Assembly: GCA_027491115.1 (NCBI GenBank)
Contig: JAIXWV010000020.1
Location: 165,975 to 229,974 of the forward strand
Source of the DNA: Pseudomonadota bacterium
GTDB taxonomy: Bacteria; Bdellovibrionota; UBA1018; CAIMNF01
Length of the DNA: 64,000 nucleotides
Reading direction: 5' to 3'
The notes beneath the pieces were generated by a model. The model saw only the letters and a program-made list of their open reading frames with translations, was not told the origin of the DNA and did not search any database. The translations under genes were made by a program, and so were the position numbers. Of this stretch, positions 20,316-57,317 are shown piece after piece. The number at the start of each line of letters is the position of its first letter. The first letter of the stretch is position 1.

Positions 20316-21094
20316 GCTGACACCCCGAAAAAGAGTTCTACCAGAGCCCCGAAGACCAGGAAAGGCCCATAAGGAATCTGGGTCCTGAGCACCCCATCCT
20401 CCCCGCCGTCACCCTCCCCACGCCGCTTGGACCAGGCCGCCATCAACAACCCCACCAGGCTCCCTGTAATGGAACTGATCAATATGGCCGACCAGATCCC
20501 CCCGAACCCAAGAAACACTCCAATCGTTCCCATGAAGTTCACGTCTCCCCCGCCCAACCCCACCCGCCCGGTCAACTTCTCGTAGAGCAGGCCAAACAAA
20601 AAGAAAAAACCGAACCCAGCGACCGACGCAGCCACCAGCTCTCCAGGTCCGTGACGATAATCAGCAAAGCAAGTCAGAAGCCCCACCCCCCAACCACCAA
20701 AACTGAGGGTGTGAGGGATGATCCTGTGATCGAGATCGATGAAGGTGACTGCTATACCGATCGAAATAAATATCCAGATCCTGAGTTGATTCACCACCTG
20801 AATCCCATCAAGCGGCAGACCCAAGTAACTACCCCAAAACAAGAAAGCGGTCAGGAGCTCCACCAAAGGATAACGAGGAGAAATTTTTGTTCTGCACCCT
20901 GCACACTTTCCCCGGAGCACCAGGTACCCCAAAACTGGAAGGTTGTGAAACCATCGAATCGATGCTTTACAGGTGGGACATCGACTCCCGGGGTGCACAA
21001 TCGACTCTTCGAGCGGCAGTCGGTGGATGACCACATTCAAAAAACTTCCCAACACCAGACCAAGAATCACGACGAGGATCGATTCGATCATCAT
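20300..21094 (-). CDS. pilD: Prepilin peptidase/N-methyltransferase
   Basis: GSFLNVVIHRLP...CPTCKASIRWFHNLPVLGYLVLRGKCAGC...IDLDHRIIPHTLS; GGGDVNFMG catalytic Asp. Confidence 0.97.
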   Translation of the reverse strand: MMIESILVVILGLVLGSFLNVVIHRLPLEESIVHPGSRCPTCKASIRWFHNLPVLGYLVLRGKCAGCRTKISPRYPLVELLTAFLFWGSYLGLPLDGIQVVNQLRIWIFISIGIAVTFIDLDHRIIPHTLSFGGWGVGLLTCFADYRHGPGELVAASVAGFGFFFLFGLLYEKLTGRVGLGGGDVNFMGTIGVFLGFGGIWSAILISSITGSLVGLLMAAWSKRRGEGDGGEDGVLRTQIPYGPFLVFGALVELFFGVSAWIGL

Positions 21095-55743: not shown

Positions 55744-55921
55744 CATGAATCGAATCTCTTTCAAATGCCCGGATCGAAGTGGCCAAGGCTTGAGCGAATA
55801 CATCATTCTCGTCATGTTGATCGCGGTTTGCTCGATTGCCGCTTCCCGGATGGTGGGCACCACCATCAAGACCAAACTCGATACCATCAACCAGAAGCTC
55901 CTGGAGATCCACATCCCCTGA
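55744..55921 (+). CDS. Flp/type IVb-pilin-like small protein
   Basis: DRSG^QGLSEYIILVMLIAVCSIA fits the G^XXXXEY Flp prepilin motif; 58 aa. Confidence 0.75.
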
Positions 55922-56280
55922 ATCGCCGGAACGGCCAAAGTCTCATCGAGTTCCAGTGGGCGATGCTACTGATCCTACTTCCACTGACGGCAGGGGCGGT
56001 CCGGATGGGGTGGATGGAATTCACCCGAATCCGATGCGGACTTCGGGCATTCCAATCCGCTCGGGAAGAGCTTCTCCGAACCGACGCCTCTGTGGTTCGT
56101 GTGGAACCCTGCGGAGGCGGAATGGAGGAGCGGATCCGTCTCCTCCCCTTGGAACGACTCGATCGGACCGGGCGGGTTTCTCCCTCCTCGGAGGAGTTCT
56201 CCTTCTTATGGCCCTCAGCATGGGAACCGGTCTCTGGATTTCCGCCCGACACCTCAGAGCCATCACGGAGCGTCAGGTGA
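55918..56280 (+). CDS. TadE-like pseudopilin, probable CTG start
   Basis: NRRNG^QSLIEFQWAMLLILLPLTAGAVRMGWMEF; no ATG/GTG/TTG near the N-terminus in frame; CTGA overlap with previous stop. Confidence 0.55.
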   Translation: MNRRNGQSLIEFQWAMLLILLPLTAGAVRMGWMEFTRIRCGLRAFQSAREELLRTDASVVRVEPCGGGMEERIRLLPLERLDRTGRVSPSSEEFSFLWPSAWEPVSGFPPDTSEPSRSVR

Positions 56281-56741
56281 ACTTCGATCGCTGTACTGGT
56301 CTGGCTGCTCTGAGGATTCGGTCCTGGATCACTGCACACGACCAGTCCTGGAAGCGGGTCGAGTTCGCACGAAGGATCACTCTGGGCTTACTTCCCACTC
56401 CAGCAGGTCCGACCGCTGTCGAATCCTTCCGGATCCTGCTGTTGGCAGAACGCGGGAATCAGGAAAGACTCCGTCTGGAATGGCGGCGAGAGGCCCTGCG
56501 TTGGAATCTCCTGACCGGGGTCGGCTGCAGACTGCGCAGACGCCCTGAACGGAGTGACTTTCCGGAACACGACTTGACCCTGGTGGAGCCAGATGTGGAA
56601 ACGGTCCTTTCCGGTGCCGGCCAAAGGGGGGCGATTCCCCGACAAGAGTACCGCGTCAGGATTGCCTCCCGGAATCAACACTCTTCCGCCGTCGCATGGA
56701 GGTCACCAAATGAAGCCTGGAAGGTCCGATGGATCCCCTAA
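56034..56741 (+). CDS. Pseudopilin-like protein (no Glu5), start uncertain
   Basis: SDRAG^FSLLGGVLLLMALSMGTGLWISARHLRAITERQVNFDRCTGLAALR; only in-frame ATG at 56034, deep inside the previous gene. Confidence 0.5.
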   Translation: MRTSGIPIRSGRASPNRRLCGSCGTLRRRNGGADPSPPLGTTRSDRAGFSLLGGVLLLMALSMGTGLWISARHLRAITERQVNFDRCTGLAALRIRSWITAHDQSWKRVEFARRITLGLLPTPAGPTAVESFRILLLAERGNQERLRLEWRREALRWNLLTGVGCRLRRRPERSDFPEHDLTLVEPDVETVLSGAGQRGAIPRQEYRVRIASRNQHSSAVAWRSPNEAWKVRWIP

Positions 56742-56889
56742 CTGGAAACGAGGATCCGCATTCTTGGAGGTAGCGCTATGGTCCGGTCTGATCGTGTTCG
56801 TTCTGGTTCTTTGCGCCAATCGCTTCGCCCGAACCTATCGGGGATTCTATCGCGCCTTGGAACACCAGCGATCGACCCTGCATTACTGA
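56710..56889 (+). CDS. Small pseudopilin-like protein
   Basis: NWKRG^SAFLEVALWSGLIVFVLVLCANRFARTYRGF; Glu at +5. Confidence 0.6.
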   Translation: MKPGRSDGSPNWKRGSAFLEVALWSGLIVFVLVLCANRFARTYRGFYRALEHQRSTLHY

Positions 56890-56894
56890 GGCAG

Positions 56895-57317
56895 GTGCGG
56901 GCCCTGCTGGGTCTGCTCGCAGGCCTTTTGCTGGTGGCCCTGGCCCATCGAGGGTCCTTCGAGGCGGGGGCGCGCCACTTTCATGAGGGTCACCTCCTAC
57001 CCGGTGAAGCCTGGCGAGCCGTACTGTCCAGTCGTGGTTTCCGCCCCCTTGCCGTGAACCGGGGCTCTCCGGGAGACGGGAAGGTGAGGATTTCACGAGA
57101 TGGCCGGATCATCGAGTTTCCAGGTGGGATCCAGGACCTTCCTACCGGTGTCCACATTCGGGGGATCCCCGCCCTCAAACCGGATTGGATCGAGCTCAGC
57201 CCAGGAATTGCCGGTTATGAGGCCTGGATCCGGAGCCTGGACGCCCATCCGATTCCCGTTCTGCAGCCGACGAAGCTCCGGGTCAATTCGATTGACCCCA
57301 AAGAGTTCCGCTATTAG
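56895..57317 (+). CDS. Single-TM hypothetical protein at the end of the pseudopilin-like cassette
   Basis: VRALLGLLAGLLLVALAHRGSFEAGARHFHEG; GTG 56895 follows the previous stop by 5 nt (ORF open to 56778). Confidence 0.5.
   Translation: MRALLGLLAGLLLVALAHRGSFEAGARHFHEGHLLPGEAWRAVLSSRGFRPLAVNRGSPGDGKVRISRDGRIIEFPGGIQDLPTGVHIRGIPALKPDWIELSPGIAGYEAWIRSLDAHPIPVLQPTKLRVNSIDPKEFRY

Follow-up and report, generated by a model that had tools for sequence, protein, structure and literature searches.

The five overlapping genes at 55745-57317 of the window, the stretch of 64,000 nucleotides that was analysed as a whole, probably make up the pilin module of a second Tad-like (type IVb/IVc) system, compact and widespread in the Bdellovibrio phylum, whose genes are split between two loci in the class to which the window belongs. 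All five open reading frames lie on the plus strand and, as had been described before, stand between a divergent SPOR-type gene on the minus strand and a PfkB kinase gene on the plus strand (Table 1). No secretion ATPase or secretin was seen adjoining the cassette in the window, and to this extent the original prediction of a set without its own ATPase or secretin holds; it does not hold for the genome, where such a pair is found on contig C28, nor for most other families sampled, where a pair follows the homologous cassette. The cassette looked orphan because the genes for its motor and outer-membrane pore seem to lie elsewhere, at a separate locus, and in this genome it is probably not machine-less.

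Table 1. Cassette genes and prepilin peptidase in the window (^, predicted cleavage position)
Feature	Position	Strand	Leader	Remarks
Gene A, Flp-type prepilin, 58 aa	55745..55921	+	RSG^QGLSEY	Pfam; alignment of 17 homologues
Gene B, TadE-like short prepilin	55918..56280	+	RNG^QSLIEF	two invariant Cys
Gene C, Glu5-less prepilin-like protein, about 195 aa	56154..56741	+	RAG^FSLLGG	Gly codon at 56175; 56154 is the first residue used in the alignment only, not a start codon
Gene D, tiny prepilin	56710..56889	+	KRG^SAFLEV	G/E/W invariant in 22 homologues
Gene E, one-TM protein	56886..57317	+		C-terminal DP[RK]E[IF]RY near-invariant (57291-57314)
A24 prepilin peptidase domain (PilD)	20447..20776 (G000:C30:186421-186750)	-		E 1.7e-14

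The architecture of the products agrees with the earlier description. Four of them begin with a short leader, a Gly and a hydrophobic helix, and the fifth, which closes the set, has one transmembrane segment. Mature position +5 is Glu in A, B and D and Gly in C; position +1 is Gln or Ser in A, B and D and Phe in C, but there without Glu at +5. That the first product is Flp-like is seen in its GXXXXEY-type motif followed by a hydrophobic helix, the features by which a Tad/Flp pilin is recognised, and in its Pfam match to Flp_Fap (PF04964, E 0.0012, below the cut-off), next to a weaker match to Class_IIIsignal. Among 17 gene A homologues, 11 match Flp_Fap at E up to 0.1 (best 6.1e-5). The TadE-like nature of the second product, also proposed before, comes from its relatives, as TadE (PF07811) matches two of 17 gene B homologues (best 5.8e-8) and not window B itself. 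One homologue of D matches a TadE/TadF-type family at 0.013 and one homologue of B matches N_methyl at 0.0069. Window proteins B, C, D and E gave no Pfam match, none of the five window proteins matched N_methyl, and scans of C and E homologues returned scattered weak matches only. When B, C and E were searched by sequence against the PDB, no significant match came up. AlphaFold models C (pLDDT 89.5) as a very long helix at the N terminus with a second helix and, at the C terminus, a small sheet; this fold had no PDB or viral match at E <= 1e-3.

The starts of several of these genes are unusual. Gene B has no ATG, GTG or TTG near its leader and appears to begin at a CTG (55918) that overlaps the stop of the flp gene (A); the same arrangement is found in four close genomes, at a site where relatives have ATG. 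No canonical start codon lies within 22 codons of the Gly of gene C, and most of the window's family likewise lacks ATG, GTG or TTG near the leader (56154-56177). For gene E, the candidates are a CTG at 56886, overlapping the stop of D, and a GTG at 56895. Rare start codons or a frameshift are possible explanations, and a programmed B-C frameshift fusion was considered because C is without a start codon near its leader.

The cassette genes are confirmed as real and as separate frames that have been kept beyond chance. By BLAST, every one of the 14 genomes searched in the genus has gene C, as do two more genera of the family, and a profile search found it in 55 of the 63 genomes of the window's class, with only one match containing a stop, and in none of the other 316 genomes of the phylum. 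The original prediction had been made dependent on the frames being conserved separately, and in 23 loci, which were fetched via the PfkB neighbour for a comparison of order and frame, nearly all five ORFs recur, their order unchanged and their frames overlapping (the automatic pick overlooked gene B in L065). Across 17 aligned homologues of gene A, the G, Q, E and Y of the GQ..EY core are invariant; in gene B homologues the G, the Q and both Cys are invariant and Glu5 is present in at least 90%. Open frames and motifs are thus retained at a class-wide identity of about 20-35%. Eight genomes of families f3, f7, f8 and f9 gave no clear match to C or to the secretin described below; there, the top Flp match still adjoins the SPOR gene and has B/C/D-like ORFs beside it, except in G027, where the contig ends first.

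Contrary to the earlier view of a lineage-specific set, the cassette is spread through the Bdellovibrio phylum and occurs in several classes. Homology of gene C between classes has moderate support from profile-profile comparison (E 4.6e-5, 1.8e-3 and 1.1e-3, with control pairs at 0.0097 to 0.91). For gene E no profile link was found between the window's class and the other classes, so that these proteins are joined by position and topology only; f10 and f12-type proteins are connected by a weak profile link (9.7e-4). Gene E occupies the place expected of an RcpC/CpaB connector, and a weak match to RcpC (0.006, below the cut-off) came solely from an f23 relative.

The relation to a secretion machine is most direct outside the window's class. 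In family f10, which belongs to another class, the order is SPOR, Flp, small TM protein, Glu-less protein, short prepilin and TM protein, and a secretin and a CpaF-like ATPase follow downstream, contiguous with the cassette, in 9/9 loci. Most of these loci (L189-L197) also encode, after the TM protein and ahead of the secretin, a small exported protein of about 100-125 aa for which the window's class showed no counterpart. Of the 13 regions fetched from other families, nearly all show the cassette, and the secretin/ATPase pair lies within about 8 kb downstream in f12 (3/3 genomes), f17 (2/2), f20 (1/1) and f19 (1/2). Family f11 has the secretin downstream of the cassette, with the ATPase absent from the listing, and in f23 and f30 the pair was not seen within the stretches fetched. 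Between cassette and secretin/ATPase pair, loci L319-L342 (f11, f12, f17, f19 and f20) encode an exported protein of roughly 600-800 aa with a GTGM or GSGM-type motif and usually also a CheY-like regulator.

In the window's own genome, contig C28 carries metK, then a secretin gene (PF00263, E 6.5e-24) whose end overlaps the start of a T2SSE-family ATPase gene (PF00437, E 3.2e-39), and then a convergent gene for a 338-aa TM protein. This pair is conserved throughout the class as a second locus. By count, 51 of the 55 genomes with gene C have a match to the metK-locus secretin that clearly exceeds the background of other secretins; the remaining four are G021, G047, G054 and G059, three of which are 71-75% complete. 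The ATPase is downstream of the secretin in 26 of 30 loci and the convergent protein is present in about 16 of 20; metK, secretin and ATPase are also together in f3, f8 and f9. The convergent protein is a candidate platform protein, as indicated by an hhalign comparison with TadB/TadC (prob 93.8, E 1.8e-7). Two of its relatives match T2SSF below the cut-off and the C28 copy has no such match; its AlphaFold model is helical (pLDDT 85.8), and a PDB fold search gave no match at E <= 1e-3. The secretin of this locus (L199:8160-9560) has a conserved C-terminal [FY]PWN[VAL]L motif. In L241 and L242 (f9 and f3), the ATPase has an N-terminal extension that, by eye, resembles an FHA domain, and its gene is overlapped or adjoined by a kinase-like one. 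Cassette and metK locus are on different contigs in the genomes of the window's class that were seen. Their co-occurrence across the class, together with the linkage in other families, suggests that the two loci work together.

The main rival to a second system is that the cassette supplies a canonical tad machine, in trans, with an alternative set of pilins or tips. As the original prediction had allowed, a Tad machine does exist elsewhere in this genome: an intact canonical locus lies at C30:33-49 kb, about 175 kb from the cassette, and holds genes for two Flp, two TadE-like proteins, RcpC/CpaB, RcpA, a TadZ-TadA fusion, TadB, TadC and FHA proteins (names read from sequence and from Pfam matches to ATPase, TadB/C, RcpA and RcpC). 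Judged by its marker gene RcpC, the locus is near-universal in the class (61/63 genomes), and there is a precedent for service in trans in Myxococcus, which uses several unlinked minor-pilin tip clusters, the interchangeable Kil tips, with one Tad machine (PMC12075869). Against this, homologous cassettes elsewhere are linked to their own secretin and ATPase, though the families with such linkage also carry canonical tad genes, and neither side lacks a pilin of its own, since a Flp-type pilin is encoded in the cassette, and Flp and TadE-like genes are present in the tad locus. Use of the cassette by the canonical machine is considered unlikely, although it is the strongest of the alternatives.

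Phylogenies bear on the same question. In the ATPase tree, canonical TadA from several families forms a supported clade with the lone C13 and C36 ATPases, and this clade leaves out the metK-locus, f10-linked and f12-type ATPases; in the secretin tree, RcpA is a clade of its own with the metK-locus secretin outside. In neither tree were f10-linked, f12-type and metK-locus genes shown to be mutual closest relatives, and the deeper joins between these non-canonical clades are without resolution. The ATPases on C36 (L200) and C13 (L198), which branch beside canonical TadA, are of the CpaF type, and about 6 kb from the one on C36 is a 694-aa TadE-domain protein that looks TadG-like by eye.

The cassette probably corresponds to a locus that has been known in part from Bdellovibrio bacteriovorus. 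This organism has four flp genes, of which flp3 (bd3297) is non-TAD and silent under the conditions tested, and its deletion had no effect on predation; fliA is bd3318 (Avidan et al., PMC5430801). Capeness et al. mention bd3306 as 'pilQ' and bd3307 as 'cpaF', with fewer cpaF transcripts in host-independent strains than in attack phase (PMC3818213). In an f12 genome (G205), flp is followed by the secretin nine genes on, the ATPase ten genes on and, further on, a FliA-like sigma factor and flagellar genes. This order matches the numbers bd3297, bd3306, bd3307 and bd3318, and the cassette was therefore taken as the counterpart of the flp3 locus, which is likely for gene A on a match of gene order only. 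Another candidate, flp4 (bd4000, between bd2719 and bd2720), was dropped as the gene order fits flp3. No paper was found in the literature that treats flp3 and its neighbours as one system.

A working model of the second Tad-like system can be drawn from these parts. No A24 peptidase other than the PilD of the window was detected in the genome, which makes PilD the likely processor of A to D, as had been suspected; it would cleave the four leaders after the Gly. The Flp-type pilin A would then polymerise into a filament, and B, C and D would act as minor pilins, probably as a TadE/F/G-like priming tip. GspK-type subunits are without Glu5, and by this analogy C, which also has none, would be the outermost subunit. 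A CpaF-type ATPase acting on a TadB/TadC-like platform would drive assembly, the filament would exit through the dedicated secretin, and E may be a membrane-anchored connector that bridges the membranes. The minor-pilin tip suggested originally is plausible for B, C and D, but the set comes with a Flp-type pilin of its own as well.

Alternatively, the same parts could form a T2SS-like pseudopilus or secretion device, in which a GspK-like, Glu5-less tip pushes cargo through the dedicated secretin and no surface pilus is made. The tiny subunits, the Glu5-less member and the dedicated secretin would all suit such a device, as would the absence of a predation effect on deletion of flp3 in B. bacteriovorus (PMC5430801). 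It is nonetheless quite improbable, given that A is Flp-like with a GXXXXEY-type motif, that ATPase and platform are CpaF- and TadB/C-related and that no cargo gene was identified. That the cassette is a decaying or non-functional remnant of a lost tad locus is most improbable of all, for the CTG starts, the missing canonical start near C in most of the window's family and a flp3 that is silent and dispensable in laboratory B. bacteriovorus (PMC5430801) are set against frames and motifs that persist across the class, with a stop in a single C match.

If the second Tad-like system is accepted, its parts are of known kinds and the B. bacteriovorus genes have already been named singly; the apparent novelty lies in seeing them as one system that spans the phylum and is split in the window's class, where annotation by locus missed it because of that split. 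The 'orphan' flp3 of predatory bacteria would become the pilin of a probable second machine, with a concrete list of genes for a possible role outside laboratory predation, and the cassette would offer a small model of the place that Glu5-less minor pilins take in Tad-type systems. Perhaps, and this is a tentative suggestion, the phylum has carried a second Tad-like machine since its ancestor, one whose own ATPase, secretin and platform lineages evolve fast and whose minor pilins form a miniature set with a Glu5-less tip; this machine may even work as a pseudopilus or as a secretion device unlike the Tad, T4P and T2SS subtypes described so far.

In comparison with canonical Tad/Flp (type IVc) systems, the Flp pilin has a counterpart, and there are candidate counterparts of the TadE-like prepilin, the CpaF-type ATPase, the TadB/C-like protein and the secretin. 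The minor pilins are much smaller, however, one of them is Glu5-less, the genes lie in two loci, the ATPase has no TadZ fusion, RcpC is not recognisable, and ATPase and secretin fall outside the canonical clades. Small ordered prepilins with one lacking Glu5 are reminiscent of the minor pseudopilins of T2SS and type IVa systems (GspH-K, FimU-PilX), from which the cassette differs in the lack of Phe +1 in A, B and D and of an N_methyl match, no product combining Phe +1 with Glu +5. The Kil system of M. xanthus is similar in having a Tad-like machine with TadE/F/G-like minor pilin sets (the KilLMN tips) encoded apart from the main locus (PMC12075869); unlike in Kil, a Flp of its own belongs to the cassette and, in relatives, so do a secretin and an ATPase. 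Close in arrangement is the locus of flp3 of B. bacteriovorus, a non-TAD flp, whose order of flp, secretin, CpaF-type ATPase and fliA is shared by f12 genomes, whereas the window's class has the secretin/ATPase pair apart from the cassette, at the metK-linked locus.
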